Assembly (NCBI GenBank): GCA_013138865.1
Contig: WTBY01000035.1
Span: 1 to 43,631, forward strand
Source of the DNA: Helicobacteraceae bacterium
GTDB taxonomy: Bacteria > Campylobacterota > Campylobacteria > Campylobacterales > Sulfurimonadaceae
DNA: 43,631 nt
Reading direction: 5' to 3'
Below the pieces are notes generated by a model that made no database searches, was not told the DNA's origin, and was given only the letters and a program-made list of their open reading frames with translations. Position 1 is the stretch's first letter. Each line of letters starts with the position of its first letter. Below are positions 2,211 through 36,350 of this stretch, piece after piece. A program made the translations under genes and the position numbers.

Positions 2211-3015
2211 CATTATGTTAAATTAATACTCGTTAAGCATTAACCAATAATTTGTTTCTTGTTTTCCTAGCTCCCTGCTCTTGTCTATTCTCTGTGCCTG
2301 TTACAAATTTGCATACATGCTTTGAATAGAGTTTGCTATCGCCTAGTATATCCTTATCTAGTTCCATCTTGTTGTAGTCTATCCACAACTTGAATCCTTC
2401 TAGTTTTGATATATCTTCAAGAAAATATTCGAACACTAGCCATCTACTATCTACTGTTACTCTTCCAAGATAACCTTTGTCATCTTTTTCTGAATAGCAT
2501 CTTTTTAATATGTTGTTCCATAGCTGTTTAGCTCTTTTCCAATATGTTAATTTTTTATTAGGAATACCATAACATCCAACTTTGTATATAGATGGAGAGT
2601 AGTGGTCTTTCACTTCTCCTGCTCTAATGTCCGTAGTTGTTGCCGTTCTTGTATATTTAGATTTTATAAATTGAATTGGGTTCTGTTCTCTTGTCCCAAT
2701 AAATTTCAATATCTTAAAATCTAATCCTAGGTTGTTTGTAAATGTCTTTCCCTCATACTGCTGAATGAGTTCTTCGTGTGTTTTTCTTTTCATAAGAAAT
2801 TTCCTTATATTAAATTATTTTCTATATGTCGCCATATAGCTCGGACTATATCTTCATCTTTCGATGCCAACCGCTTCCACCTACTTAGGTGTACTTCCTT
2901 TCGGAATAGTCTCTACACTTTCCTATCTCTAGGCTTAGCTCGGTATTCTCTTGTGTCATTTGACACAAACTCTCCACCGAATTCAATTGGTTTATTTTTA
3001 GTTTGACAACAATTT
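2211..3015 (-). mobile_element. Group I self-splicing intron in terL (805 nt)
   Basis: Both TerL halves align as one protein only if this segment is removed. The 5' exon end TTTGACGAT pairs over nine base pairs with the internal guide GTTGTCAAA, ending in the conserved U.G wobble at the splice site (after 3016). Core elements on the minus strand are: P-like near 2974-2988, Q-like near 2932-2946, R-like GAGACTA (2902-2915), and an exact S element AAGATATAGTCC (2843-2854) whose TAGTC pairs with GACTA of R to form P7. A stem CTATATG/CATATAG with a GCGA tetraloop follows (2822-2839), matching P9. The intron ends in G (2211). It houses a homing endonuclease gene in its 3' part. Confidence 0.93.
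2233..2793 (-). CDS. Intron-encoded homing endonuclease
   Basis: This 186-aa protein belongs to a familiar phage homing-endonuclease family. Its N-terminal region (KTFTNNLGLDFKI, YSPSIYKVGCYG) is followed by a W..IL.RCYSEK segment, W...F..F, and the C-terminal signature ELDKDIL...LYSKHVCKFV. It would cleave intronless terL alleles and so spread the intron. The ATG at 2793 has AAGGA 8 nt upstream, just after the P9 hairpin, so it can be translated from unspliced or early transcripts. It ends 22 nt before the 3' splice site. The catalytic residues are not established here. Confidence 0.85.
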   Translation of the reverse strand: MKRKTHEELIQQYEGKTFTNNLGLDFKILKFIGTREQNPIQFIKSKYTRTATTTDIRAGEVKDHYSPSIYKVGCYGIPNKKLTYWKRAKQLWNNILKRCYSEKDDKGYLGRVTVDSRWLVFEYFLEDISKLEGFKLWIDYNKMELDKDILGDSKLYSKHVCKFVTGTENRQEQGARKTRNKLLVNA

Positions 3016-3570
3016 ATCGTCAAACAACATTAATTGAGGTCTCTTACCTGCTCTCTTTGTACCACGTAGTGATTGACCTGAACCCTTCACTTGTATGTAT
3101 ATTACATCTCCCTTTTCATTTCTGAATCTAGCATTCTTTTTAGTTGCTTTCTCTAATGTTAAGGTTTCTTGTAATACTTCACTATTCTCCCACATGAATA
3201 CAATCTCTTCTAGTAGTCCAATAGCTTGGTCTTCACTAGCTGAGAATATCATTAGGTTCTGAATGTTTTGTTCTACTCCATCTTTGTTGTAGAAGTTAGG
3301 CATGTATCCTAGCGAAGCTACATACAGTGTAAGTTTAGTATTAAGTACTGTAGTTTTAGCACCACCACGATGAACTATGATTTGAACTCTATCTTCATCT
3401 GATAAAGTTAGGTCTAGCATTTCATAGTGAATCCTTGGTGTCTTATTATCTTCTGCTAATAGGTTTATGTTACACCATGATAGAAAGTTCTTACTCTCTA
3501 CGGATGGTCTGTATGGTACAGTATAATCAGGTCTATGAACTCTATCATTTCTAGTGTACGAGTTCGACAT
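3016..3570 (-). CDS. terL: Terminase large subunit, exon 1 (ATPase half)
   Basis: This exon holds the N-terminal 185 codons of TerL. It has a Walker A-type motif HRGGAKTT (67-74) and a Walker B strand LMLFDD at the very end (180-185). Without splicing the frame runs into the intron, adding KLLSN and stopping at 2998, which would lose the coupling and nuclease domains. The intron is inserted directly after the catalytic Walker B aspartates, a highly conserved site that favours homing. The start overlaps the end of the TerS frame by 20 nt. Confidence 0.93.
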
Positions 3571-19376: not shown

Positions 19377-19410
19377 AAAAAAAAGAATACACAACCTAGC
19401 TAAGGCTGTA
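19377..19410 (-). terminator. Intrinsic terminator after the split RNA polymerase operon
   Basis: On the minus strand TACAGCCT pairs with AGGT..TGTA through an 8-bp stem with a 2-nt bulge and a TAGCT loop. An uninterrupted run of eight T (19384-19377) follows after a short gap. The TAG stop codon of the polymerase gene lies across the loop and the start of the 3' arm. It would separate the first early unit from the rest. Confidence 0.7.
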
Positions 19411-20430
19411 TACACTATTTCTTATATCATCTTCAGTTAGAGTATTGGTCTTGTTGAATGTGATTTGAGTTCCTGCTATTTGAGTCATAATATCCTCTAA
19501 TAAGTTAGAGTTCAATATGTCAATTAGAGAGTCCTCATACACTTGTCTAAGCTTGTCTACATTGTTAGGATGCACACTAAAGCTATCATGTATTGTTGTT
19601 ATAAAGAGGTGTTCCATACCCCTTACTATTTGTCTTAGTAGGTATCCATCTACTGAGTGTATAATGTTTGGAGCCATACCCTTATTGAATTCAGAAGGTG
19701 CATATACTTCACTTGTTAGATTACATGAGAATGTTTTACCACTTCTTGATTTCTTTTGTATATTCATATCAAGTCTTGATTTAACATCATACTTGACTTT
19801 AGCACCATCAGGTAGAGTCCAGTTGTATGTACCTACTGATTTATCATTTAGTTCTTGAAGTCTAGCCATTACGTTCATCGCTTCAGGGGCTATAATAAGC
19901 ATACTATTAGTGAATGCATCATCGAATTCTTTTACTGATTTGTCTAGTTTGTCCCCAAGTAGTTCATGCAATGACTCTCCACCCTTGGTAGAACCATATA
20001 ATGTTGTCATTAATGGCTTCTTACAGTTCTTTCTAGTGAACAGTTGAGTGCTGAATTGCTTGTTCATTTCGTCTGCTAGTAGTTGGTAGGCATCAATTCT
20101 AGTTAAACCAGTGCCAATGCTACCTAGTGATGCTGTCTTTTTACATCCAGCTAGTATTCCGTAGAGCTGTAATGCTTGATTACTACTATCCACTGGCATG
20201 ATATAGTGTACTTCTTGGTTCGCTAAGTGGTCTTTGTATGCATTGAGTGCACAAAAGTATCCAAATACGTTGTCTGCACTTTGTTCAAGTCTTGTTAATT
20301 CCTCTATTGACTGACTATTTACCCATGAAACTTGCTCATCAAAGCTTAGTTTATCATGTCCGTACTCTGATGCTATGTTTACCTTTAGCCAATATAGACC
20401 TCTTTTAGTTAGTTTTAGCGCTTCGTTCAT
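19396..20430 (-). CDS. Split T7-type RNA polymerase, C-terminal catalytic subunit
   Basis: This 344-aa protein has the palm and fingers of a single-subunit RNA polymerase. Motif A is VDSSNQALQ (catalytic D81). The O-helix is R133-x3-K137 with Y145-G146 in KPLMTTLYGS, the same spacing as T7 R627, K631 and Y639. Motif C is TIHDSF (D282). It lacks the N-terminal and thumb domains. N4 RNAPII is likewise two polypeptides (gp15 and gp16) that transcribe middle genes. The ATG overlaps the upstream subunit's TGA (ATGA), ensuring balanced synthesis. Three regions of sequence identity with the giant virion protein suggest related polymerases. Confidence 0.92.
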   Translation of the reverse strand: MNEALKLTKRGLYWLKVNIASEYGHDKLSFDEQVSWVNSQSIEELTRLEQSADNVFGYFCALNAYKDHLANQEVHYIMPVDSSNQALQLYGILAGCKKTASLGSIGTGLTRIDAYQLLADEMNKQFSTQLFTRKNCKKPLMTTLYGSTKGGESLHELLGDKLDKSVKEFDDAFTNSMLIIAPEAMNVMARLQELNDKSVGTYNWTLPDGAKVKYDVKSRLDMNIQKKSRSGKTFSCNLTSEVYAPSEFNKGMAPNIIHSVDGYLLRQIVRGMEHLFITTIHDSFSVHPNNVDKLRQVYEDSLIDILNSNLLEDIMTQIAGTQITFNKTNTLTEDDIRNSVYSLS

Positions 20431-21347
20431 GTATTATCCTTTGTTAGTACTGGTTTAACCAGTGATTTCTGATAAGAGTCTCCATGTAGTGTGATATCAT
20501 ATCCACTACAGTAAGCTCTAAGCCTAAAGTCATACTTCCAAGCGAAGTAGAACTGTCTATTTTCCATTGTTTCGTATGTTTCCTGTGCCGTTTGTAGTCT
20601 AATGAGTGCTGATTTAAGATGCTCAGCTTCATCTTTCTTCCAATTCTTTTCTTTTAGGTTAGCTAGTATGTAATTGAATTGAGTATCCATGTCCCATTCA
20701 CGTAATGTGAACTGTTGAGACTGTAGTTTATTCAATACATCTAGTACATTTTGAGGTTGTTTAGCATTTCCTTTGTTCAAAGTTACCTTTGAAGTATCCA
20801 AATGGTATCCACCTTGTGCAATTCCCTCTATCCATTCAAGAGGTGCTTCAATCAATGGTAGTTTATACCTACTATATTGAAGTAGTTTGTCTGCATCTTC
20901 TGCAATAGTGAATGAAACTATAGCAGTTGTTTCGGTATACCAATGGTCTTGGTCACTTAGTTTGTTTTCTTGTGACAAGTCATAGAAGACTGTATCAAAT
21001 TCTGCTAGTATATCCATAGCGGTATTGTATTTCCATGGTGTATCTTCACTGTCTAAGAAGCTAGATATACCTAGTACTAGTTGGTTTATATCAAACTCTC
21101 TAATGTGTGGAAAGTCTGTATCCATAACTTTGCCATGAGCCTTGTTTCCAAGTAGTGCAATGATGTTATACATTAGCTCATTGGTTAAGTCTTCATTGAG
21201 TCCAGTGATTTCTTGTAACTTGAAGTAGTATTGAGTGTCTATTTGGTCTATCCATTTAGACAATGCTATTGCTATTTCTTCATTCATGTTTTCACGACTG
21301 AACATTACTTCAATTTGTTCTTGTGTTTTGCCTTGTATATCTATCAT
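20427..21347 (-). CDS. Split T7-type RNA polymerase, N-terminal subunit
   Basis: This 306-aa partner holds the polymerase part upstream of motif A. RYKLPLIEAPLEW matches the LPM..P..W region before the thumb/palm boundary, NVLDVLNKLQSQQF matches the N-L-L-N..Q..P-type helix, and FAWKYDFRLRAY matches T7's template-binding D-W-R-G-R (the glycine is replaced by Leu). Together with the following gene it reconstitutes one polymerase, as N4 gp15 does with gp16. The length is slightly above N4 gp15. A single frameshifted gene is unlikely because the ATGA junction and both start contexts are clean. Confidence 0.88.
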   Translation of the reverse strand: MIDIQGKTQEQIEVMFSRENMNEEIAIALSKWIDQIDTQYYFKLQEITGLNEDLTNELMYNIIALLGNKAHGKVMDTDFPHIREFDINQLVLGISSFLDSEDTPWKYNTAMDILAEFDTVFYDLSQENKLSDQDHWYTETTAIVSFTIAEDADKLLQYSRYKLPLIEAPLEWIEGIAQGGYHLDTSKVTLNKGNAKQPQNVLDVLNKLQSQQFTLREWDMDTQFNYILANLKEKNWKKDEAEHLKSALIRLQTAQETYETMENRQFYFAWKYDFRLRAYCSGYDITLHGDSYQKSLVKPVLTKDNT

Positions 21348-21952: not shown

Positions 21953-22035
21953 TATAGTACCTTGTCTGATAGTATTAGTATTGTAGTTGTAATCAGTATG
22001 AACATGGTAAATAGTATATCTTCTTGATAAAACAT
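21952..22035 (-). CDS. Membrane peptide, first early gene (27 aa)
   Basis: MFYQEDILFTMFILITTTIL then ILSDKVL: one transmembrane helix with a short acidic N-terminus. AAGGA stands 6 nt before the ATG. Being first in the early unit, it could act at the host membrane on entry, for example in exclusion or depolarisation; this is inference. Confidence 0.6.
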   Translation of the reverse strand: MFYQEDILFTMFILITTTILILSDKVL

Positions 22036-22378
22036 GGTGTATCCTTGTGTAAATTAGTGTTATTTAGACAAAGACACTTAAGCCTTTGATTTTGGTAGAG
22101 CAGTTATAGTCTGCTAGGTATGAGTTATGACACAATGTCTAACCTGCTAAACTCTTAAGCGGTTAATCCAGATGACTTTATCGAGTCAACAAACGGTTTA
22201 CAGTCTTTTCCTGTAAGTCATACTACTGTTATAGACTAAGAGTTGTCTTCTAGTGGTTAGCTTATGACCCAAGCTGTAAGGTAGTGTTTAGTCTGATTCA
22301 TGCAGAGTATGTGTTGCAACATACAGTAATTCACTGGTACTTCCAGTCTAATTTAGACTCTTGAGAGAGCTGAATAAT
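22036..22378 (-). other. Non-coding hairpin array upstream of the early genes
   Basis: No convincing gene is seen. At least six short perfect hairpins follow one another: 22099-22115 (AGCAG, 7-nt loop), 22173-22188 (TGACT, 6), 22198-22216 (TTACAG, 7), 22259-22275 (AGCTT, 7), 22307-22324 (GTATGT, 6) and 22345-22359 (AGTCTAA, 1). Weaker ones lie at 22292-22306 and 22334-22346. It would be the 5' leader of the early transcript if that starts at the upstream hairpin promoter. The loops do not fit tRNA anticodon rules. It may be a structured non-coding RNA, a replication origin or a set of extrudable promoter hairpins. Confidence 0.55.
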
Positions 22379-22495
22379 ATGAGCACAAGCATAACCGCTA
22401 ACCTTACTCTATTCATTAAAGTAGTGACCGAAGGGAACAAAAAAAGGTTTGATGAGTTAGATGCTATGGATAGTGTGAATAGGATAGAGAGGTAG
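22379..22495 (+). CDS. Possible 38-aa protein on the plus strand
   Basis: The frame MSTSITANLTLFIKVVTEGN and onward to RFDELDAMDSVNRIER has protein-like composition. The ribosome binding site is weak (GAGAG, 9 nt upstream), and it would be the only plus-strand gene. It may be chance within the non-coding region. Confidence 0.22.
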   Translation: MSTSITANLTLFIKVVTEGNKKRFDELDAMDSVNRIER

Positions 22496-22571
22496 TATAG
22501 GTAATATTAGGGTTGCATTACCACCTCCTTACCATACACTCCCACCATACCTATACCATTGCTACGTTTGT

Positions 22572-22584
22572 CAGTGAAGCACTG
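22572..22584 (-). promoter_or_regulatory. Candidate virion-RNA-polymerase hairpin promoter for the first early unit
   Basis: The plus (template) strand reads CAGTG-AAG-CACTG, a perfect 5-bp stem with a 3-nt purine loop. Size, loop length and strand agree with N4 virion polymerase promoters. It points leftward to the early genes, about 540 nt upstream of the first start codon. A second CACTG (22586-22590) offers an alternative pairing. Assignment is by analogy only. Confidence 0.5.
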
Positions 22585-22650
22585 TCACTGCCTATGTTTG
22601 ACCAACTCTATACAATTAATGATTCTTAGTCTATAGCTACATATAGTAGA

Positions 22651-22659
22651 GGGGGGGGG
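22651..22659 (+). repeat. Homopolymer of nine G
   Basis: G9 stands out in an AT-rich genome and lies in the non-coding gap between the late and early regions. Such tracts slip easily and may vary in length between genomes. No gene is clearly switched by it. Confidence 0.85.
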
Positions 22660-22843
22660 TAGCTAGTGTTTGGGTAGATTGAATCTGTAGGTGTGTTGGA
22701 ATGCATCTGTAAGCATTTTCTTGTTTTCCTATACTACGATGCTCATTCCACATATTATTTTTTATAATAATCTCCACTTAGAAATGTTCTCTTCTACATA
22801 CGATTCAATTATCTTCTTTATCTCATCTCTATGATAGAATACC

Positions 22844-22866
22844 AGAGGGAGTAAAAACTCCTCTCT
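22844..22866. other. Terminator-like hairpin at the end of the late region
   Basis: AGAG-GGAGT-AAAA-ACTCC-CTCT forms a 9-bp stem with one bulged base. It follows the last late gene in leftward transcription. No T-tract follows on the minus strand, so it may be a weak terminator or an RNA 3'-end stabiliser. Confidence 0.5.
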
Positions 22867-22870
22867 GTAT

Positions 22871-22957
22871 TTATCTACATTCAGTACAAAAGACACTTTC
22901 TTCTACTCTTAAATAACATCCACAATTTGTGCATGTATCATCTAAGCTGTACCTCAC
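22871..22957 (-). CDS. Possible 28-aa zinc-ribbon peptide
   Basis: It starts at GTG overlapping the upstream TGA (GTGA). The peptide has CTNCGC and CTEC cysteine pairs about 15 residues apart, suited to one zinc ion. There is no separate ribosome binding site, so it depends on coupling. Confidence 0.42.
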   Translation of the reverse strand: MRYSLDDTCTNCGCYLRVEESVFCTECR

Positions 22958-24007: not shown

Positions 24008-24280
24008 TTATAATAATGTAGCACATGCTATTTTTGATTTAGTTGTCATTCCCGTATTGTTATTATTGGCTGTCCTGAAGTATGGTGTTTCAGTACCTTC
24101 GTATCTGAATATGCCATCTTCTATTGATAGATGCATGTGTGGATAACCTTCATACCCTACTGGCAGGACTGAACCAAAGTATATCAGTACATCATTCTCT
24201 TGTGTTTGTAGTATCTGTTTCCCCGTGAAGGGGGAAGCTTTCCATTCTGTATTGTCTGGATATACGTATTGTGATGCCAT
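24008..24280 (-). CDS. Hypothetical 90-aa late protein
   Basis: The protein is beta-rich (DVLIYFGSVLPVGYEGYPHM, then GIFRYEGTETPYFR) without a signal peptide or membrane segment. Its ATG touches the stop of the giant virion protein gene. It is perhaps a small virion protein; not recognised. Confidence 0.65.
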   Translation of the reverse strand: MASQYVYPDNTEWKASPFTGKQILQTQENDVLIYFGSVLPVGYEGYPHMHLSIEDGIFRYEGTETPYFRTANNNNTGMTTKSKIACATLL

Positions 24281-27200
24281 TAGTCATCTCCTTCTATGGT
24301 TGATTGTACTAGACCTTTATATGGGTCAAAGTCAATTCTTTTTTTAAGTAGCTTGTTAGCTCCTAGTGTCTCTGGGCTTCTCCATGCATTGACTAGTACT
24401 TTTGGTACTGTGTGAGCAACTAATGAATTTTGTAATACTTGTCCAATTCCAGTAGCTTCTATCTTGTCATAAGTTGCAAATGGTGTTTGTCCTTCTGCAA
24501 AATCAATGACTGCTTCCAGTGGATTAGTTGTACTTAGATTCAAATCTGTCTCTTGTGCTAGTATGTAAAGTCCTATTGCTACTGCAATAGCAGTCTTTGG
24601 ATTATTCCTTGAAATCTGCAACAACTTAGGAGTTGTCTTGCTGAACCACTTTAAGAATGGCATAGCTGGATACTTATCTAACATCTCAATCATAGCTGGA
24701 GCCATTTCATCCATATTGGAATATAGTCCATTTGATTCAGTGATAGCTTTTTCCATTGTCATCTTGGGATTCTTTTTCATTAGTGAGCGAACCATTGCAT
24801 ATCTACCAGTTGTATCTATTGCTGAGAATCCTTTGATTGAAGCTTTTCCTATTGCAGTCTTTTGACTTAAGTTTAGATTTTTGGCTAACCAGTATACTGA
24901 AGTTGGCATACCATCTTTTAATAATGCTCCAAGCAAGTCATCATCTCCAAGCACGCCTTCTACTCTATTTGTTGATAAACCTTGTCTTTCCATCTTGTAT
25001 AGAAGATTGTTTTTTAATTTAGATTGGAGAGCTTTGTCTAGCTCTGCACCAGATATCTTACTTCTTCTTAATTGTTCAACTATCTTGTTCATCTCAGTTA
25101 AGTCTTTCAGTCCTTCCTTTTGGAACCTAGCATGTGTTAATGGATTGATTCTCATTGTCATTGGTAGAGTTTGGTTTACTATAAATGAGTTCAGATATGA
25201 AGCAGGATTCTTTAGTACTACGTTCTGCTTGAATGCTGTTGCAAAGTTCTGTGCTAGTTTATCTATCATCATTAACCATCTCTTGTCTCCATGATATAAC
25301 CTGACTTCATCTCTACCCATTAATGGTTCAAACATCTCTTTGTTGATGTATCTTACTGTATCTCTCATTCCATAAGGAAGTTGTCTGGATTGCTCTTCGG
25401 TAAGTTCTACAAATCCATCTTTAGCTTTATTAGAGAACAGCAAAGAACCTTTATCATTCTCAACCATGGTATACATGACTAATTGTTTCTGAGATGCTTT
25501 CTCTTCTGTAGCTCTAACTGTTTCAGTTAGTGATTCTACAAAATCATCACTTATTCCAAGTTCTTTTCTTATGTCGTCTCCAGCTACTTTACGATACTTT
25601 CCACCAGTCTTTCTTAGTTGGTTTTCTTGCATGAATTCAAACTCTGATTTAGAGTCTTTGAATAGTGGTGCTTCTCCCTTGTAGATAGTACCCATTCTCT
25701 TTGATTCTAGCTCACTTCCAAGTAGACCTTTTTCATAAACATCCCCAAGCTGGTATTGAACTTTGCCTGATTCAGATAGCTCTTTCTTTCCTCTATAGAC
25801 TGACTTTATGTAGCCCTTAGTAATCTTCTCTGGATTAGTATCAAAGAGTTCTTTCTCTGATATAATTCTCTTGTGTCTCATTGTGTCCATAACTAAGTCT
25901 AAGTCTTTATCTTTACCCAGCTTCTCCAGTATCTTCCATCCACCATTTGTGTCCATTGCTTTTATTGATATTAGCTGGTCAATTAGTTTAGCTGATTCTA
26001 TATCTAGGTTGAATCTATTGGCTATCTCTGTACCATTTCTAGCATAGAAACCATACTGCTTAGATTCATTCTTTAGTCCTATTACTGATGCCTTAATATG
26101 TCTATCTATCCCTTTTGGTAAAGACTTGGCCTGTTCTTTGATTGTCTTAACTTGCTTTTTAGTTATTCCTCTGATTGATTCATAATCTGATTTAGCAAGT
26201 ACTTCAATGTCTTTTAGCTTTGGCTTATCTATCTTGGATAAGTCTTTATGAAGTAGCTCTGCATTTCTGTTTACTACTGATTGTCTAAAGCTTTCTCTTG
26301 AACTCAATTCTCTCATCTTAACGTATGCTTCTGCATCGCTATTTTGAATGTTCCAAGCAGTCTTGTGTGATAGCTTTTCTGGCTGAGCTGATTCAATTCT
26401 GATATCATTCACTAGCTTCTTTTTCAAGTATTGTTTCTTAGTTAAAGTCTTACCTTCTTTCCATGAGTATACTTCTTTCTGAATCTCTGCGAACTTCTTA
26501 ATCTTCTTAGACTCAGCTAGCTTCCGTTCAGCTCTAATGATTTCATTCACTGTGCCAATACTTTTGCCAAATGGCTTTCCATTCTCGTGAAAGTATTTTC
26601 TGTTTCCTTTTACTTTATGAGTAATTAATGGATTGTACTCTAGTTTGGCTCTAGCTACCTCAAACAGCTTTCTTTGTGCTGATTTGAATAGTCTAGCATC
26701 AACTCCTTCTGGAGTTTTAACCATCATCTTTTCAGTGAATTTATTACCATTCATTGCATGATAGATTACATTTTCATAAGGACTAGAACTAGGTGCATCT
26801 ACAGTTCTTGAATACATCTGTTCATTAACTATCGAGTCTAATAATCTGGTTGTGGTTTCTGTTCTTACGTCCATGCTAGCCATGTAGTCATTCATTAGTT
26901 CAAGTGGCTCTTTAACTTTCTCATCTTCTATTTCAACTTGTTTAACTTTTATCTTTTCGCCTTCAGTGTGTTCTGGAGACATCTTTTTAGTTCCTGTTGC
27001 AATATCTTCTTTTGATAAGTCTCCAAACATCTTCTTGATTGGACCACCCCTGTATCCTAGTTCTTTCATGATATCATCAAGCAAGTTAGAATCGTTTATC
27101 TCTTGCATTATGTCTGTGTAGACTTTTAATACTTTATCAGATTGACCTTCTGGTGTACGAACAGCATCGTGTACTGTTGCTACTGGAATGTCTAGTCTTT

Positions 27201-30200
27201 TAGCTACTTCCTGAATTGCATAGCCATCTATCGAATGAATTATATTTGGCATTAATGCTCTGCTATTCATGTCTGATTTATTGGTTGCTATCTCAATATC
27301 TTTTTTACCTAAAGTTCCTCTGATTGAGCCTTTCGCTGTATAGCTGGAAGTGGTTCCATTTGGTAAAGTCCATTTGAATGCACCTTTGTTTCTTTCTTGC
27401 AATGTATAGATAGAATCTCTCAGCACTTTTGCTGATGGATACATGTCAAGGAATACCTTATTGAATGCCTTGAATACATGCTCTGCTTCTGGCATTGTTA
27501 ATCCATTATCTTTTGCAAATGTCTTGATTAATCCTTTGTCTGAACTTCCATAAGCCCAAACCATAGCTAGAGGTTTAATGTGAAACTTTCCAAACTCAAC
27601 TGGAAGATGTTCAGCTATTAATTCCTCTTTTGTATTTTCAACTATCTTTTTCTTTATTGATGATTTGATTTGCATCTTGTCAGCTATAACTTGTCTAAAG
27701 TCTTTTCCTCCAAACATAATCTTAGTTCCTTTTGCTAGAGATTTATCTCCCATTAGAACTGATATGAATTGGAATGCACTGTTTGATGCATCTGTCATTT
27801 CATCTTTAAAGATGTATTCTGCTTCCACTTTAGCATTGTCTGATATTCCCATATTGCTACGAGTTTGCTTATTTTGAATGCTTGCATATTCTGCTTTAGC
27901 TTCTGCTTTTATGTTCTTGTCAGAACTAGATAATCTTCCGAATAAATCAATATCTATACCTTCGTTAAGTTTTTCCACTTCGTCTTCTCTTAGAGTAACT
28001 TCTCCAGTTTTCTTTCTAGTTGCTTCAGTAGGATTTTCACGATAAGCTTCTGCTTTTCTTTCTTGTGCTAATCTTGGTTTATCATTTTCTTTCTTGTAAG
28101 TGTAAGTTCCTTTGGATTTCTTTTTCCACTCAGGGTTTCTTACTTTTGTTTTTATTCCAAGTTTAGAGAACTCTTCCATTCTTGATAGTTCTGAACCAAG
28201 CATATCTAGTTCGCCTTCAAATTCTGATTGACTGTCTTTCTTTAGTCTATCTTCAAGTCTTAGCATTTCTCTATATCTCAATTCGTCTATGTCAATCTTC
28301 TTTTTTCTAAAGCTATCTAAGTCTGATGCTAATTCTTCTTGTTGTCTTACAACGTATTCATCTGCTGGATTAGGTTTAACATCCAATGATTTAGCTTTCT
28401 TTACTCTAAGTTTAGCTTCATTGAATGATTTACGTCTTTGCTTTCCGATATCTATAATGTTCTTTTGTATTTCTACATCTGATATTTCTTTCTTTGCAAA
28501 TCCCCATCCTTTCTGATAGTCTTTGTCATTCTTCTTGAAGTGTTCAAATTGTTGAGTTAGTTTGATTTCTCTATCAGTTCTCACTGATGCTGATTCAACT
28601 GCTTTACCAATCTGCTTCTCTTGTTTCTTGGTAGCTGACTCTATAGCTTCTTTGGATGGTCTAAATTCTACAACCTTCTTAGATTGAAGTTCATTAAACT
28701 TTTTACCTGCATCCATACGAACTGATTTCTTGATTGATTTATCTTTCCATATAGCATCGTATAAGTCTTTTTCGTATTGTAGTCTATTAGCTTTTATTTG
28801 AGCTGACGATTTAGCCTGTGCTTCTTTAATGCTTGCTTCTGCTTTACCATAGGCTTTTTTTATCTTAGCTTGTCTATCAAACAGTTCTAGCTTATAGGCT
28901 ACATGCTCTTCTGCATTTACTACTTCTTTTGGTTGCCTAATCTTTAGTCTAACCTTTTGAGATGTATCTCCTGCTGGACTCAATAGGCTTCCATCTTCAT
29001 AATAAGCTCTAGCTTCACGTTCTTCAGTCTTTACGTCTTTAGTTATTGGGTATTCAGTTACAGTTTCATCTGCTTCTTTAGTTGGCTTAACTACATCAAA
29101 TTCTACTTCTGATAGCTTCTCCATTCCTTCTGAATCAGATATCTTTCCACCAGTCTTAGATATGGTAGATGCTTTAGCTTCTGGTTGAACTTCCGTTGTG
29201 GGTCTTGATTTCTCTGGCTTCACTACCTTAGAATCAGAAGCTTTTGGTGTTTGCCGTTTTCGTACAAACTCCTGCAAATGACTAAATTGTTTTTCATCTA
29301 ATGATTCAACTATTTGAGTCTTCACTGCTTCGTCTCCATCTGTGAAAGCTTTAGCTATTTGTCTTCCTTGAACTCCTCCAAAGAATCCACCTATAACTGC
29401 ACCTATCCCGCCTGCTAATAGAGGAGATGCTTCTTCCCCTTCTTTAATACCTGATTGTTCCTTTAGTAGTTCGTATCCTGTATTTATCACTGCTCCAGAA
29501 CCAGCTCCAATAGCTATCCCTTTTCCAATTCCAACTCCTGCCTTAATAGGCAATGTTGCTGGAAGTATAAATTCAGGTGCTATCTCTCCAAATGTTGCTG
29601 ATAAGTTATGCTTTGAACTAATGTCTTTGCTTGCTGTTGTAGCTACATCTTGCATTTGTTCTTTTAGATAGTCGTCTCCAAGTAGTGATGCTACTCCACC
29701 AACTGCCTTAGCTACTCCTATTCCCATTCCTTTTCCAAAGTCCAGTGGCATATCTCGTAGATTTTTAATCATTCTTTCTGAACGACCCTCTGGACTGTCT
29801 TGACCAAATTCATCATCATAGCCAGATGCTATCTTAGCACCTCCCCATACTTTGTCAAGTAGGCTAATTTGTTCTGGTTCTAATAGTTGCTGAGCCTTAG
29901 ATAATGCTTCCTTTTCTATTGGCTTATATATCTCAGTTGCACCTTTGCCAAACTTGTTTTTAGTTAATCCATAGTCTACGGCTCTTCTTTTTAAGAATGA
30001 TTTGTTTCCATGTATCCTTGCTTCTAAGTCTACTGCATCAGAACGTCTTTCATTATAGATTACATCCCATCCAGATATGTCTTGACCTTGATATCTTTCA
30101 TCTAGTCCATTTGGTGCAATACCAAACTTTATTTCTCCAGTAGTTGTATTCTTTAGTTTATAGAAATACGGGTCATTGCTTGTTGGTGTCTCCATTGACT

Positions 30201-30405
30201 TGTCTGAGAATCTGGTCTGTAGTTCCTCTGGAGAGTCGTCATTGAAATCTTTGTTTGTGTTCCCATATCTTTTTCCATCTATGTTTGTCGTGTCTCCAAA
30301 TTGCAACATGCTTGGAACATTTTCATTCCAGTAGTCTGTTAATCCTGATTCATAAACTTTATCGTCCTGAACAGGAGCAAGTTGAAGTAAATCGTTTACT
30401 CCCAT
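24280..30405 (-). CDS. Giant virion RNA polymerase (N4 vRNAP-like) with GIY-YIG-like N-terminus, 2041 aa
   Basis: It contains single-subunit RNA polymerase motifs: motif A TDASNSAFQ (D872), O-helix K944-x7-Y952-G in KPLAMVWAYGS (T7 K631/Y639 spacing), MPNIIHSIDGYAI shared almost exactly with the early polymerase, and motif C VHDAV (H1079-D1080). Residues 78-145 look GIY-YIG-like (YFYKLKN, IKFGIA, DERY, DLEARIH). Gly-rich hydrophobic stretches near 285-345 suit membrane insertion during ejection. Long charged helices follow. The gene is downstream of the capsid and internal proteins, as N4 gp50 is, but N4 vRNAP is about 3500 aa. It is inferred to be injected and to transcribe early genes. Confidence 0.88.
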   Translation of the reverse strand: MGVNDLLQLAPVQDDKVYESGLTDYWNENVPSMLQFGDTTNIDGKRYGNTNKDFNDDSPEELQTRFSDKSMETPTSNDPYFYKLKNTTTGEIKFGIAPNGLDERYQGQDISGWDVIYNERRSDAVDLEARIHGNKSFLKRRAVDYGLTKNKFGKGATEIYKPIEKEALSKAQQLLEPEQISLLDKVWGGAKIASGYDDEFGQDSPEGRSERMIKNLRDMPLDFGKGMGIGVAKAVGGVASLLGDDYLKEQMQDVATTASKDISSKHNLSATFGEIAPEFILPATLPIKAGVGIGKGIAIGAGSGAVINTGYELLKEQSGIKEGEEASPLLAGGIGAVIGGFFGGVQGRQIAKAFTDGDEAVKTQIVESLDEKQFSHLQEFVRKRQTPKASDSKVVKPEKSRPTTEVQPEAKASTISKTGGKISDSEGMEKLSEVEFDVVKPTKEADETVTEYPITKDVKTEEREARAYYEDGSLLSPAGDTSQKVRLKIRQPKEVVNAEEHVAYKLELFDRQAKIKKAYGKAEASIKEAQAKSSAQIKANRLQYEKDLYDAIWKDKSIKKSVRMDAGKKFNELQSKKVVEFRPSKEAIESATKKQEKQIGKAVESASVRTDREIKLTQQFEHFKKNDKDYQKGWGFAKKEISDVEIQKNIIDIGKQRRKSFNEAKLRVKKAKSLDVKPNPADEYVVRQQEELASDLDSFRKKKIDIDELRYREMLRLEDRLKKDSQSEFEGELDMLGSELSRMEEFSKLGIKTKVRNPEWKKKSKGTYTYKKENDKPRLAQERKAEAYRENPTEATRKKTGEVTLREDEVEKLNEGIDIDLFGRLSSSDKNIKAEAKAEYASIQNKQTRSNMGISDNAKVEAEYIFKDEMTDASNSAFQFISVLMGDKSLAKGTKIMFGGKDFRQVIADKMQIKSSIKKKIVENTKEELIAEHLPVEFGKFHIKPLAMVWAYGSSDKGLIKTFAKDNGLTMPEAEHVFKAFNKVFLDMYPSAKVLRDSIYTLQERNKGAFKWTLPNGTTSSYTAKGSIRGTLGKKDIEIATNKSDMNSRALMPNIIHSIDGYAIQEVAKRLDIPVATVHDAVRTPEGQSDKVLKVYTDIMQEINDSNLLDDIMKELGYRGGPIKKMFGDLSKEDIATGTKKMSPEHTEGEKIKVKQVEIEDEKVKEPLELMNDYMASMDVRTETTTRLLDSIVNEQMYSRTVDAPSSSPYENVIYHAMNGNKFTEKMMVKTPEGVDARLFKSAQRKLFEVARAKLEYNPLITHKVKGNRKYFHENGKPFGKSIGTVNEIIRAERKLAESKKIKKFAEIQKEVYSWKEGKTLTKKQYLKKKLVNDIRIESAQPEKLSHKTAWNIQNSDAEAYVKMRELSSRESFRQSVVNRNAELLHKDLSKIDKPKLKDIEVLAKSDYESIRGITKKQVKTIKEQAKSLPKGIDRHIKASVIGLKNESKQYGFYARNGTEIANRFNLDIESAKLIDQLISIKAMDTNGGWKILEKLGKDKDLDLVMDTMRHKRIISEKELFDTNPEKITKGYIKSVYRGKKELSESGKVQYQLGDVYEKGLLGSELESKRMGTIYKGEAPLFKDSKSEFEFMQENQLRKTGGKYRKVAGDDIRKELGISDDFVESLTETVRATEEKASQKQLVMYTMVENDKGSLLFSNKAKDGFVELTEEQSRQLPYGMRDTVRYINKEMFEPLMGRDEVRLYHGDKRWLMMIDKLAQNFATAFKQNVVLKNPASYLNSFIVNQTLPMTMRINPLTHARFQKEGLKDLTEMNKIVEQLRRSKISGAELDKALQSKLKNNLLYKMERQGLSTNRVEGVLGDDDLLGALLKDGMPTSVYWLAKNLNLSQKTAIGKASIKGFSAIDTTGRYAMVRSLMKKNPKMTMEKAITESNGLYSNMDEMAPAMIEMLDKYPAMPFLKWFSKTTPKLLQISRNNPKTAIAVAIGLYILAQETDLNLSTTNPLEAVIDFAEGQTPFATYDKIEATGIGQVLQNSLVAHTVPKVLVNAWRSPETLGANKLLKKRIDFDPYKGLVQSTIEGDD

Positions 30406-30417
30406 TTAGTTCTCCTT

Positions 30418-31248
30418 TTAGTCAAAAATACTGAATATTTTATCCATGGTTGTTTGGGTTGGTTTTTTCTCTTCTTTAACTCCAGTTGCCAATCTTTGAC
30501 CTGTTATTAAATCATAGAAGTATCCAGATGCTTTCTTGGTTATTTTGGAACCATTTCTCTTTTCTGGAACTACATTCCATCCAATGTTTTCTTTCATTGT
30601 TCCATCATCTTTTAGCATTGTCTTTTGAAGTGCTGGTGGCATGTTTTTAAATTGAGTCAATGCTGGTTTGGATAGTCCAAGCCTTGTCATTGGGTCTATG
30701 TACTTTCCTTTTCCAGTCGCCTTAACATCTTCTTTAAACTTAACTCCTGAATCAACATGCTTTCCACCTTTGGTTATGTGAAACATATTTCCGTTAGCTC
30801 CTTTATAAGAGCCTTGCGTTAATCCAGAGTTCACTCCTTCTTTACGAATTTGCTCAGCTTCTTGAACGTTTTCTTTCCGTATATTTTCTGCTGTTCTTGC
30901 TGTCTGTCTACCAGTCTGTCTTAAATCTAATCTTCCTGATTCATCCATTGCTCGTCTTGAACCTAATAGATTATCTATTCCTAATTGACCCTGCTTAGTT
31001 AAAGAACCTCCAGCTACACCTAATAGCTTTTCTTGTAATTGAGCTTCATTCAAATCGTCCAATCCACCCCTAGCTATCAGGTCATTAACTTTCTGTGTTC
31101 TATCAATCTTTCCTGCATTAGCAATTAAGTTTACTAATCCTTCTCCTGTTTGTTGTTGCATTCCCATTAATTGATTTAATGCTCCTGCTGATACATTAGG
31201 AGAAGCAGGTCTATTCCCTGCTCTATATGGGTTTAAATTCATAGGCAT
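30418..31248 (-). CDS. Internal virion/ejection protein (276 aa)
   Basis: Gln-, Gly- and Arg-rich, with heptad-like segments (RQTARTAENIRKENVQEAEQ). It is placed between a Gly-rich small protein and the giant polymerase, like N4 gp51-gp52 next to gp50. It is probably packed in the capsid and ejected. No enzymatic motif is seen. Confidence 0.65.
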   Translation of the reverse strand: MPMNLNPYRAGNRPASPNVSAGALNQLMGMQQQTGEGLVNLIANAGKIDRTQKVNDLIARGGLDDLNEAQLQEKLLGVAGGSLTKQGQLGIDNLLGSRRAMDESGRLDLRQTGRQTARTAENIRKENVQEAEQIRKEGVNSGLTQGSYKGANGNMFHITKGGKHVDSGVKFKEDVKATGKGKYIDPMTRLGLSKPALTQFKNMPPALQKTMLKDDGTMKENIGWNVVPEKRNGSKITKKASGYFYDLITGQRLATGVKEEKKPTQTTMDKIFSIFD

Positions 31249-31251
31249 AAA

Positions 31252-31644
31252 TTAAAACCTTAACGCTTGTCTAGCTTCATCTGCTTCTACGTCTCTGCTG
31301 TATGCATCTGCCGTTCTAGCTTCTTGTTGATTCATTAAGTTCTTTTGAAAGTCCATCATCTTATTTTGACCATACATATCGTATCCTTGTTTACCAATTC
31401 CAAATATGTTAGATGCTTTATCTGATGTTAGATTTCCCCATAGGTTACCCATTCCAGAAGCTTGTCCTCCAGTGCCGAATGCACCTTCTCCCATTCCTCC
31501 CCAGATATCCATTGAACCTAATTGTTCTTGCATTGCTGGTGTCATACCTTCTATGCTTGATGCTAATGAACCCATATCAAAATTACCTAATTGATTTCCT
31601 GCTCCACCGAATAGGTTTCCTAGGCTACCCCATAATTCATTCAT
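31252..31644 (-). CDS. Gly/Met-rich internal virion protein (130 aa)
   Basis: The N-terminal 75 residues are rich in Gly, Met, Trp and Leu (LGNLFGGAGNQLGNFDMGSL). The C-terminus is a charged helix (QKNLMNQQEARTADAYSRDV). This layout is common in podoviral DNA-ejection proteins. The role is inferred from composition and position. Confidence 0.62.
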   Translation of the reverse strand: MNELWGSLGNLFGGAGNQLGNFDMGSLASSIEGMTPAMQEQLGSMDIWGGMGEGAFGTGGQASGMGNLWGNLTSDKASNIFGIGKQGYDMYGQNKMMDFQKNLMNQQEARTADAYSRDVEADEARQALRF

Positions 31645-31656
31645 TTATTCTCCTTG

Positions 31657-32160
31657 TTAAATTACTTCTTCTAACTCATCATTCACTAATTCTACTATGT
31701 ACTTAGGAATAGTTCTTGAAGTATGTTCTCCTACATTGCCATTCTCAGTCATTGCTGTTGCATCATAGTAGTGTTCTACATCTCCACTGTCCTTTAAGAA
31801 TTTGATTACAGCTATAGGTAACTCTACTATCTCATTAGGTTGAAACTCAACTGAATATAGGTTAATAGATACAAAGATAGATGTGTTTGCATTAGCACTT
31901 CCTGTTGGATGTACTCTTACTTTTAGATACTTTCCAAGTGTCTGATGAGTTCTGATTCCATCTTTACCCACCTTTACTTTACCTGCACCTTTCTCATTCT
32001 TTGTTACATACTTGCCTGATTCTTCAACTAGTGATACTAATACTGGATTAGTTTCATCTCCTTTGAATTCAATTTCCAGTGATGTTAATAGTACATGTAG
32101 CTCGTCTTTAGTCATGTTGCTTAGTGATTTTCTTGTTAGTCCTGATTGTGTTACGCTCAT
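31657..32160 (-). CDS. Virion protein downstream of the capsid gene (167 aa)
   Basis: It begins with a helical SAP/HeH-like piece (SLSNMTKDELHVLLTSLEIE) and continues as a beta-rich domain. It lies next to the capsid gene, separated by two hairpins. It is possibly a head decoration or completion protein; the family is not certain. Confidence 0.62.
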   Translation of the reverse strand: MSVTQSGLTRKSLSNMTKDELHVLLTSLEIEFKGDETNPVLVSLVEESGKYVTKNEKGAGKVKVGKDGIRTHQTLGKYLKVRVHPTGSANANTSIFVSINLYSVEFQPNEIVELPIAVIKFLKDSGDVEHYYDATAMTENGNVGEHTSRTIPKYIVELVNDELEEVI

Positions 32161-32246: not shown

Positions 32247-33272
32247 CTATGAGTAATCGTAGTAGTCTTTAACTGCTGAATCTTCAATCGAAGCTGTACA
32301 TTCTGTACGGATTAACCATGCTTCATTTAGGATAGCACAACCTGTAATTGCCTTCCATCCAATAGTACCAAACTGGTCTAATGGGTCTGATGTACCACCA
32401 GAACCTAATGGCTTAACTTTAGTCATAATACCATTCTTTCCACGAAGTGTTACTGTTGCATAAGCATCCATTCCCATAAAGTATGAGATGTATACGTTAG
32501 TATCAGTACCAGTTCCTTGGTCTGGGATTGGGTCATTGTTGAATGATTCCATACAACGGAAGTCTCCAATAACACCAACCTCGTCTTCTACTGCTTTAGA
32601 GTAATCTGAATACTCTTCAACATTCTTCCATCCAGCTAGACCACGAAGGTCTTCTGTTACCTCTGGAGAAATGATTCCACAGTAAGCTGAACGTACTGGT
32701 TGTGTTCCGATTGAAGTAGTACCAGAAATTACTTTCTTGAACTTCTTAGCTCTTTGATTCTTTAATTTAACTGCCATGATTTTAAAGTCATTAGCTGTGT
32801 GCTTCTTAGCACCATCTGCAACTGTTAAACGTGATGTTGCACCATCTGCATAAACTACGTTTGTTCCACCACGCAATACATCTCTACGAATTGTATCAAC
32901 TGTAAGCGATGCTTGGTCTCCTAGAATATCTAAGAATGAAGATTGGATATTATCGAAGTCATATAAGTCTAACTCGTCTGAGTATGTAATATAATCTCCA
33001 TAGTGTCCTACTGAGTAAGTAATCTCTTCACGAACAATCTTATTTGGTACTTTGATGTTTGAACCATTGTATTCTGCTAATGGTGTTGTTGCTGGCAAGA
33101 TATTTTTATATCTGTAAGCGAATGCTGTTTTAGCATTTGAGTTAGCTGGGATTGTTTTTGCTTGACCAAACTTGTCGAAGATTTGATTTGCTGTAACTCT
33201 CTCTAGTAACTTTCTGTCGTAAACTGCTGTAACTTTTGCTGATAAAAATCCTGTTGTGTCCATAACTGCCAT
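32247..33272 (-). CDS. Major capsid protein, N4-gp56 family
   Basis: This 341-aa HK97-fold capsid protein is of the N4-gp56 family. The N-terminal YDRKLLERVTANQIFDKFGQ, the YSVGHYGDYITYSDELD strand and DTIRRDVLRGGTNVVYAD are typical. GIISPEVTEDLRG and a C-terminal strand region complete the fold. It has AAAGGAAA before the ATG and codon use suited to high expression. The gene order portal, scaffold-like, capsid, internal proteins, giant polymerase is that of N4. Confidence 0.93.
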   Translation of the reverse strand: MAVMDTTGFLSAKVTAVYDRKLLERVTANQIFDKFGQAKTIPANSNAKTAFAYRYKNILPATTPLAEYNGSNIKVPNKIVREEITYSVGHYGDYITYSDELDLYDFDNIQSSFLDILGDQASLTVDTIRRDVLRGGTNVVYADGATSRLTVADGAKKHTANDFKIMAVKLKNQRAKKFKKVISGTTSIGTQPVRSAYCGIISPEVTEDLRGLAGWKNVEEYSDYSKAVEDEVGVIGDFRCMESFNNDPIPDQGTGTDTNVYISYFMGMDAYATVTLRGKNGIMTKVKPLGSGGTSDPLDQFGTIGWKAITGCAILNEAWLIRTECTASIEDSAVKDYYDYS

Positions 33273-34337: not shown

Positions 34338-36350
34338 TTATCCTTTATTGATTTCTTTTTTCTCTATACTTTGTAAAGTCTCTACTGGTTTTAATGCAGT
34401 ATCAACTTTAGTTCCTTGTGTTTTAGCATACTTTTCTGCTGTCTGAGAACCTTTATAACCCATGTTTGCTTGTGCATCCATTTGATTAGTCATGTCCTTA
34501 ACTGCATTTGAGTTAGCTCTCGATTGTATCTCTACTATCTCAGCTTGTATCTTTTGAACTGATAATTGCTTTTCTTGTAATTCAAGTTGCATCATCATTT
34601 GTTGCTCTTGTGATGGAGGTGGTTTCTCGTAACTACGAATACCTTCTGCCTTCTCATACATGTCAAATAGCTCAAACATTTCAGCTACTAATGCATTGAT
34701 AGTATCAGGTGGACTCTCGTCTCCTAGTACTTTAGCTTGTTGCATAAGTAGATTTAGTTGTTGGATTCTTTGTCCTCTTACAACCTCGGTTCCTACCTTT
34801 ACATTTATTTGCTGATGTTTTGACTCTTGGAAAGCTAGAATATCACGCTGTTCTTGTGCCGTAAACATACCTTCTATCTGCTCATTGCTCAGGAATATTT
34901 CTGCCATTAGTAACCATTCTTTCATTATCTTTCTAATTAGATTACCAACACCTCTAACTGTTGATGCCATTCTCTGTTGACTCATAGTTAGTTGTGCATC
35001 TGAATCGTCTTTAGCTAATGCTGAATTGTTTAATGCTGGACTTCCACTTGATACTCCTGAGAGTTCCTGTGAATCAGCATCTACCATTTGCAATGTTTGA
35101 AACACTGAATTAGGCAAGTTGTTGTATGAACCATCTTGTATTCCATCTGGTTTGTTAACCAAGATTATTTTCTCTCCATTCCTCATCTTCTTAAGATTAG
35201 GATAGTCAATAGAACCTCTTGTTATGAACTTCTGTCCATTGTTGGAATTAGACATATTGTCTAAGATTCCTCTCATGAGACTAGACTTAATTATCTGATT
35301 GTCTCCTATAAAGTATGCTAATGCATTACCCCATAGTGAGAATGGTCTAGCTGAATACACTTCCCTAAAGAAAGGTATTGCTTTACTAGGCATAGGATTC
35401 TCTTCAATTCTTAGATTTATGTTATCCTTGTCTGCCCATGTAGCTACAATAGGTTCAGCTATTCCATCTCCATTTAGGTCATAGTAACCCCAATATTCAA
35501 TGATGACTATTTTCTTTCTAGCTTCATCTAATGGTTGATAAGTTGTGTCTGCACCATATTCTCTATTATCTGAGTTTCTTACATTTCCTAAATCAGTATC
35601 TTCATTAGCATCTGCATCTTTAATTGAGGATAGTTTATCTATCTGCTTCTCATCGTAGATACCAGTTTCTCTTAGTTCAGATATAGTCATGTGTTTTCTA
35701 TGTATAATGAATCTACAGTCTTCCATGGTCCTTGCTGCTGGGTCTGGGAATACATGTTCATTTCTCAACACCTCTGCTGTTGGTTCATTGTGAGTCATTT
35801 CAAAGTTATCGAAATCTACTTTAAATGTTCCATCTTCATTCTGGTTTATATTAGCAGGGTTGTCCCCTCTAGCTAAGATATCTTCCATTGAGATGCTGTC
35901 TATTGATTCACTATTGTTTTCTTCTCTGAAGTCCCAACCAGTTCTAACCCACACAGTCCCTTCTCTCAGCATTACGTCCGATAGTTGTTCCATGAACTCT
36001 TGTCTATCAAAGTTTCCAGTGAAGTGAGCATTCAAATACTTCTGCATTATCCTAGCTCTTGTTTCACTTTTGCCTGATGTCAATCTTATTGGATGTGATG
36101 TTGATGTAAAAGGTTCTGTAATATTAGGTTTCTGAAATTCAATTTGCTTTGCAACTTCTTTCATTACCATTTTAGATTTCTTCGAGTTGGTTTGATTAGT
36201 AGACTTTCCATAGTATAAATCATTCCATGCTATTATCTGCTTATCTATGGTTGTCTTAGCATCTCTAGCTTTCTTGTAATCATGTCTTAGATTCTTATAC
36301 GCTTCTTCTTCTTTTGATAGTTCTGATGTGTTATCTTCTACTTCTGCCAT
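34338..36350 (-). CDS. Portal protein (N4 gp59-like, 670 aa)
   Basis: It forms the DNA entry channel at one capsid vertex and receives TerL. Supporting segments are KKSKMVMKEVAKQIEFQKPN with TSTSHPIRL near residues 60-90, ML REGTVWVRTGWDF near 125, YWGYYDLNGDG, and a long C-terminal helical barrel (EQQMMMQLELQEKQLSVQKI). It is long for a podoviral portal and nearer to N4 (about 760 aa). It is followed by scaffold-like and capsid genes. Confidence 0.86.
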   Translation of the reverse strand: MAEVEDNTSELSKEEEAYKNLRHDYKKARDAKTTIDKQIIAWNDLYYGKSTNQTNSKKSKMVMKEVAKQIEFQKPNITEPFTSTSHPIRLTSGKSETRARIMQKYLNAHFTGNFDRQEFMEQLSDVMLREGTVWVRTGWDFREENNSESIDSISMEDILARGDNPANINQNEDGTFKVDFDNFEMTHNEPTAEVLRNEHVFPDPAARTMEDCRFIIHRKHMTISELRETGIYDEKQIDKLSSIKDADANEDTDLGNVRNSDNREYGADTTYQPLDEARKKIVIIEYWGYYDLNGDGIAEPIVATWADKDNINLRIEENPMPSKAIPFFREVYSARPFSLWGNALAYFIGDNQIIKSSLMRGILDNMSNSNNGQKFITRGSIDYPNLKKMRNGEKIILVNKPDGIQDGSYNNLPNSVFQTLQMVDADSQELSGVSSGSPALNNSALAKDDSDAQLTMSQQRMASTVRGVGNLIRKIMKEWLLMAEIFLSNEQIEGMFTAQEQRDILAFQESKHQQINVKVGTEVVRGQRIQQLNLLMQQAKVLGDESPPDTINALVAEMFELFDMYEKAEGIRSYEKPPPSQEQQMMMQLELQEKQLSVQKIQAEIVEIQSRANSNAVKDMTNQMDAQANMGYKGSQTAEKYAKTQGTKVDTALKPVETLQSIEKKEINKG

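Follow-up and report, generated by a model that had tools for sequence, protein, structure and literature searches.

The locus considered here raises the question of what kind of RNA polymerase is encoded by a 2041-aa open reading frame (ORF) that occupies the minus strand at positions 24280-30405 of contig WTBY01000035.1 (assembly GCA_013138865.1), the plus strand there being full of stops. The stretch analysed (hereafter the window) is the entire contig, C71 in our numbering, 43,631 nucleotides long and part of a 3.03-Mb assembly of 82 contigs. In a preliminary description, in which the ORF was given without its strand, the product was taken for a virion RNA polymerase (vRNAP) of the type found in phage N4, within a reduced and possibly distinct lineage. 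We found that the protein carries a single-subunit RNA polymerase (ssRNAP) core with affinity to subunit 2 of the early RNA polymerase RNAPII, and we consider it probable that it is a polymerase that is packaged in the virion and injected, in which an N4-type ejection scaffold is combined with an RNAPII-type catalytic module.

The polymerase core

The proposed catalytic residues D872, K944, Y952 and D1080 are indeed in place and align with D537, K631, Y639 and D812 of T7 RNA polymerase, and the IIHS-DGY string noticed in both polymerases recurs as PNIIHS-DGY in the early polymerase gene at 19396-20430. All ssRNAP motifs could be recognised, i.e. motifs A (D872), B (the O-helix, K944-x7-Y952) and C (H1079-D1080) with the two palm aspartates, the PNIIHSIDGY string and a DxxGR block, where the window protein reads EREAR and R466 is kept. 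The centre of the protein matched phrog_2051 (RNA polymerase of the N4 gp16 kind, E 5.5e-20), and no match of the protein to phrog_2206 (the N4 virion RNA polymerase) was obtained. The core is a paralogue of RNAP2, the gp16-like RNAPII subunit encoded in the window itself (28% identity, E 4e-16), and in a profile comparison (hhalign) residues 870-1143 of the protein family aligned to RNAP2 with a probability of 99.9 and E 1.8e-33. A sequence search of the PDB with the full-length protein gave nothing.

The protein and its parts are located in the window as follows:
24280..30405 (-), 2041-aa predicted ejected virion RNA polymerase (vRNAP-like)
29902..30171 (-), possible GIY-YIG/T5orf172-like nuclease domain (tentative), residues 79-168, from phrog_681 (E 1.2e-4)
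29371..29733 (-), hydrophobic glycine-rich segments, candidate membrane-inserting helices, residues 225-345, from hydropathy
28924..29031 (-), DxxGR-type block, residues 459-494, with R466 invariant in 12 homologues; hhalign to the last ~40 residues of RNAP1/gp15 (E 4.2e-5)
27892..28845 (-), charged helical insertion of ~300 aa, residues ~521-838, between the 'YG' after DxxGR and motif A, from the alignment with RNAP2 rows
26977..27810 (-), palm/fingers catalytic core, residues 866-1143, with motifs A (D872), B (K944-Y952), HS (H1057) and C (H1079, D1080)
24475..26433 (-), C-terminal domain homologous to the C2 domain of N4 gp50, residues 1325-1977, from hhalign

The N-terminal 'WLKVNIASEYG' of RNAP2 aligns with residues ~500-520, and therefore a segment of ~300 residues appears to be inserted before motif A; this segment is helical in the AlphaFold2 model, in part at a predicted local distance difference test score (pLDDT) of 80-89. 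The model, built with 14 sequences, had a mean pLDDT of 68, with most of the core at 80-93 and low confidence upstream of residue ~480. Comparison of structures, which had been suggested as a check, was in line with a predicted palm/fingers fold: in the PDB, the top Foldseek matches were ssRNAPs alone (N4 RNAPII gp16 (6dt7_B), T7 and mitochondrial RNA polymerase; E ~1e-7, probability 1.00), and in a viral library non-virion RNA polymerases came first (E down to 5e-11), with gp50-type vRNAPs at E 1e-3 or weaker.

For the C-terminal domain, hhalign related residues 1325-1977 to the C2 domain of N4-type vRNAPs (N4 residues 2675-3489) with probabilities of 99.2-99.3 and E values of 6e-20 to 9e-21, and nothing was found with reversed and column-shuffled control profiles. 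The N-terminal domains of the 2041-aa family and of N4-type vRNAPs showed no sequence homology. Residues 79-168 of the window protein contain several positions (Y82, K93, G95, R104, E128, H132 and E158) that are conserved in 6 members, and were modelled locally as strand-strand-helix-strand-helix (block pLDDT 62-78, mean pLDDT 40). The phrog_681 endonuclease match makes a GIY-YIG assignment of this region suggestive, but Pfam, AlphaFold2 and Foldseek did not confirm it, and the region is missing in three homologues.

A family in compact phages

At least eleven more contigs of uncultured phages, found in IMG/VR, carry full-length homologues, bringing the family as analysed to twelve members including the window. 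The family was found by a scan with an alignment anchored on RNAP2 and enlarged by further alignment scans; scanning the viral contigs with the complete window protein as the sole query yielded no close relatives, and an alignment of capsid proteins proved too diverse to serve as a query. The intact homologues are 1872-2481 aa long and, over the aligned sets, 26-41% identical to the window protein, yet all twelve members share R466, D872, K944, Y952, H1057, H1079 and D1080. Nine of the contigs measure 43.2-46.8 kb, the other three being shorter fragments. Most also carry early genes of the RNAP2 type, and in the relatives ORFs of capsid size precede the virion polymerase gene. The earlier suggestion of a possibly distinct, compact lineage is supported, with relatives of 43-47 kb.

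Two members differ in gene structure. One (G209) has its early RNAPII in one chain of 653 aa instead of two subunits (L148 1664-3625 (+)), and in another (G204) the virion polymerase is split after the core into 1629 and 929 aa by an ORF overlap of 13 nt (L063 9130-11919 and 11907-16796 (-)), which may be either a real split or a frameshift error. The HExxH motif is absent from 11 of the 12 members; the one match, at residue 552 in G209, lies upstream of the core.

A scan of genome contigs gave no copies of the family, and within 399 related genomes it was present only in the genome to which the window belongs. Three other matches in these genomes lie in frames of 854-1102 aa and represent ordinary ssRNAPs. 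T7-like RNA polymerases of 1080 aa are encoded on contigs from two genomes of the same bacterial order (L155 573-3815 (+) and L156 1554-4802 (+)); in the ssRNAP tree they stand apart on a long branch of their own.

Probable packaging and injection

The order of the genes around the 2041-aa ORF is that of N4: portal, capsid, three small ORFs and then the polymerase gene, all on the minus strand, and the late position reported before was correct. The genes concerned, and those of the early polymerase, are:
34338..36350 (-), portal protein (SU10_portal, E 3e-89; matches N4-like portals)
32247..33272 (-), major capsid protein (phrog_1357; Phage_capsid_4)
31657..32160 (-), 167-aa cysteine-free ORF between the capsid and candidate ejection genes (cysteine count)
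31252..31644 (-), 130-aa cysteine-free ORF, candidate ejection protein (position and cysteine count)
30418..31248 (-), 276-aa cysteine-free ORF at the gp51 position, candidate ejection protein (position and cysteine count)
20427..21347 (-), early RNAPII subunit 1 (RNAP1), gp15-like, 306 aa (phrog_2166, E 7e-26)
19396..20430 (-), early RNAPII subunit 2 (RNAP2), gp16-like, 344 aa with 4 cysteines (phrog_2051, E 4e-69), paralogue of the virion core

No cysteine is found in the 2041 aa, where ~20 would be expected, cysteine making up ~1% of the remaining ORFs (Poisson p 1.6e-9, or 5e-7 when compared with late genes only), and the family as a whole has 1 cysteine in 25,687 aa. Similarly, cysteine is absent from N4 gp50, gp51 and gp52, from four other N4-type vRNAPs and from the three small ORFs between the capsid gene and the 2041-aa gene; the early RNAP2s have 2-9. 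The hydrophobic glycine-rich segments at 225-345 occupy a position similar to that of the membrane helices of N4 gp50 at 224-278 (PMC12633501), and the C-terminal region of the N4 vRNAP is described as required for encapsidation (PMC5512222). The C2 homology, the near-absence of cysteine, the hydrophobic segments and the N4-like gene order lend good, albeit indirect, support to the prediction that the 2041-aa protein belongs to the virion and is ejected from it.

By homology, the C2-like C-terminal domain would bring the protein into the capsid. Upon infection it might, given the lack of cysteines and the gene order, be threaded unfolded through a short tail together with two or three small partners that likewise lack cysteine, after which the hydrophobic segments 225-345 could lodge in the inner membrane. 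The palm/fingers core with the DxxGR block and motifs A, B and C would then, by analogy with N4, transcribe the early genes, including the RNAP1/RNAP2 pair, and this pair would make the middle RNA.

Origin of the core and alternative explanations

The position of the core among the ssRNAPs, for which a phylogeny had been proposed, was derived from three maximum-likelihood trees, from which the core of Alteromonas phage PT11-V19 was left out (its motif A could not be aligned). The core indeed belongs among the ssRNAPs; in all three trees the family forms one clade (100/100) beside the RNAPII-type enzymes, with the gp50-type cores outside. It adjoins the early RNAP2 of the same phages, supported by 96/46 in one tree, where a further row joins the group, and by 91/71 and 95/85 in the other two. 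The affinity of the core to RNAPII is well supported. How it came about is less clear, since a single clade of all virion polymerases is rejected weakly in the approximately unbiased (AU) test (p 0.03 and 0.051), and a tree in which the family core is the sister group of all RNAPII is not rejected (p 0.36), and we therefore regard a module swap and slow vertical descent from a shared ancestor as about equally probable. With a swap, a duplicate of RNAPII would have replaced the N4-type module, or the scaffold would have captured such a duplicate, which would mean that an injected viral RNA polymerase arose a second time by a route of its own, with a thumb-poor ssRNAP and a helical insertion of ~300 residues near the place where RNAPII is split over two genes; we rate this full scenario just below an even chance. 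The protein could also be a gp50 orthologue by vertical descent, in which the gp50 core evolved slowly and that of the N4-type vRNAPs diverged beyond recognition, making the family an intermediate between RNAPII and vRNAP. The homology of the C2 domains, the weakness of the AU rejection, the non-rejection of the sister position and the very long N4-type branch (2.2-2.7), which makes long-branch effects likely, are in favour of this idea, but the family core lies beside early RNAPII in every tree and matches the N4-type vRNAP profile only at E 0.006 (probability 6%) against 1.8e-33 for RNAP2, and we think it possible but somewhat doubtful. It concerns the origin of the core and is compatible with a packaged and injected role.

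That role itself is weighed down by several observations. Profile comparison found no counterpart of RNAP1 residues 1-260 anywhere in the 2041-aa protein; in N4 gp15 this part corresponds to the N-terminus and thumb (PMC4496689), and because this half is undetectable the core may not be self-sufficient for transcription. In addition, the predicted template modelling score of the AlphaFold2 model was 0.41, and no repeated hairpin or motif was found near the early genes. The missing match to RNAP1 and the low model confidence upstream of residue ~480 would fit a polymerase-derived structural or ejection protein that is packaged and has no polymerase activity of its own, and that may pair with RNAP1-like or host factors or act as a DNA-pulling motor or inner-membrane channel, like T7 gp16. 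On the other hand, the thumb may exist in an unrecognisable form, and the invariance of the catalytic residues, including R466, K944 and Y952, in 12 diverged homologues argues for maintained catalysis, making such an inactive protein unlikely in our opinion. A non-virion late polymerase that ended up in the structural operon by chance is very improbable, considering the near-absence of cysteine (unlike the early RNAP2 with its 4), the C2 homology, the hydrophobic segments and the fact that the genome already encodes an RNAPII. We thus retain the packaged and injected polymerase as the preferred explanation.

Genome and host

The ends of the contig overlap exactly over 127 bp, which fits a circularised assembly of ~43.5 kb and is consistent with a complete or near-complete phage genome, with the proviso that the overlap may equal an assembly k-mer. 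The capsid protein is nearest to that of a human-gut contig and of Bacillus and Streptomyces podophages, Schitoviridae coming next, and the 276-aa ORF at 30418..31248 had no family match in our searches. Just upstream of the early operon, 1001 bp (21953-22953) lack a long minus-strand ORF and form a candidate early-promoter region; no enriched hairpins or repeats were found in it. A Group I intron (RF00028, 57 bits, E 2e-13) and, after it, an HNH ORF divide the large terminase gene into two pieces:
2822-3046 (-), Group I intron, with ORFs 2998-3570, 2233-2793 and 1197-2213

The window encodes a primase, Sak4, a 5'-3' exonuclease, ribonucleotide reductase subunits and thymidylate synthase. No DNA polymerase or helicase was detected in the whole window, and the phage may rely on the replicase of its host. 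Binning placed the contig with a bacterial genome that lacks a 16S gene and whose RecA, used instead, is closest (up to 90%) to metagenome-assembled genomes of Sulfurimonas (Sulfurimonadaceae, Campylobacterota). A Sulfurimonas-like bacterium is thus a candidate host from binning alone, and binning is no proof of a host.

Comparison with known systems

Schitoviridae have been described as phages with a genome of 59-80 kb, a vRNAP of ~3500 aa and 17 core proteins, including DNA polymerase gp39, the genome being linear with terminal repeats and the morphology that of podoviruses (PMC7650795). The genome of 43.5 kb, like those of the relatives (43-47 kb), is smaller, and the genes for RNAP1, RNAP2 and a vRNAP-like protein are present, the last with 2041 aa and another core than the Schitoviridae vRNAP. 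The set of 17 core proteins is incomplete: a primase and Sak4 (gp44) were found by search, and the major capsid protein, a gp57-like protein, the portal and the large terminase as PHROGs, and DNA polymerase, gp24, gp25 and gp42 were not detected in the window by phmmer. Judged by its sequence, the phage is outside the published description of the Schitoviridae.

So far, N4-like virion RNA polymerases have been associated with a single divergent core, as a rule joined to a metallopeptidase, and with phages of 59-80 kb. Here the same kind of ejection scaffold appears with a different polymerase, in phages little over half that size in which the virion polymerase and the early RNAPII are still recognisably related. 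Searches of the open-licence literature brought up no virion polymerase with an RNAPII-type core. The family offers a handle on how the one kind of polymerase, virion or RNAPII, gave rise to the other, on which regions of an ejected polymerase packaging depends and on which transcription does, and on whether an ssRNAP works without a conventional N-terminal/thumb half.

The label of an N4-type virion RNA polymerase holds in part. Like N4 gp50 (phrog_2206), the protein is encoded late, after the capsid and small ejection genes, is free of cysteine, and has hydrophobic N-terminal segments, an ssRNAP in the middle and a C2 domain. Unlike gp50, it has 2041 instead of 3500 aa, an RNAPII-type core with an HDA motif C and PNIIHSIDGY, an insertion of ~300 aa before motif A, no detectable thumb/N-terminal half and no HExxH C1 domain, a zincin domain that is said to be almost always fused in gp50-type vRNAPs (PMC5512222). 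With N4 RNAPII (gp15/gp16; phrog_2166 and phrog_2051; PDB 6dt7) it shares a core homologous to gp16 and a DxxGR block that matches the C-terminus of gp15; it differs in being a single chain within a cysteine-free late protein of 2 kaa, in which the two blocks are parted by the insertion and the N-terminal part of gp15 is absent.

The size of ~3500 aa that was cited for known vRNAPs is the textbook value (PMC7650795), but the Alteromonas phages PT11-V19 and R22Y have vRNAPs of ~2082 aa (2082 aa in PT11-V19, L005 30690-36938 (+)), and a small size alone is not new because a gp50-type vRNAP of 2083 aa was already known in R22Y (PMC11705849). These proteins resemble the 2041-aa protein in size and operon position and have a weak C2-like match (E 4e-4); unlike it, they have a gp50-type core (phrog_2206, E 1e-19) and an HEIVH motif, in genomes of 68-71 kb. 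In PT11-V19 the polymerase match starts near residue 153, the N-terminal domain being nearly absent. Another parallel is the virion RNA polymerase fused to the tape measure protein of Thermus phage P23-45, which is likewise a virion protein with a fused polymerase and transcribes pre-early genes (PMC10770324); unlike the T7-like core described here, it is homologous to cellular RNA polymerases.

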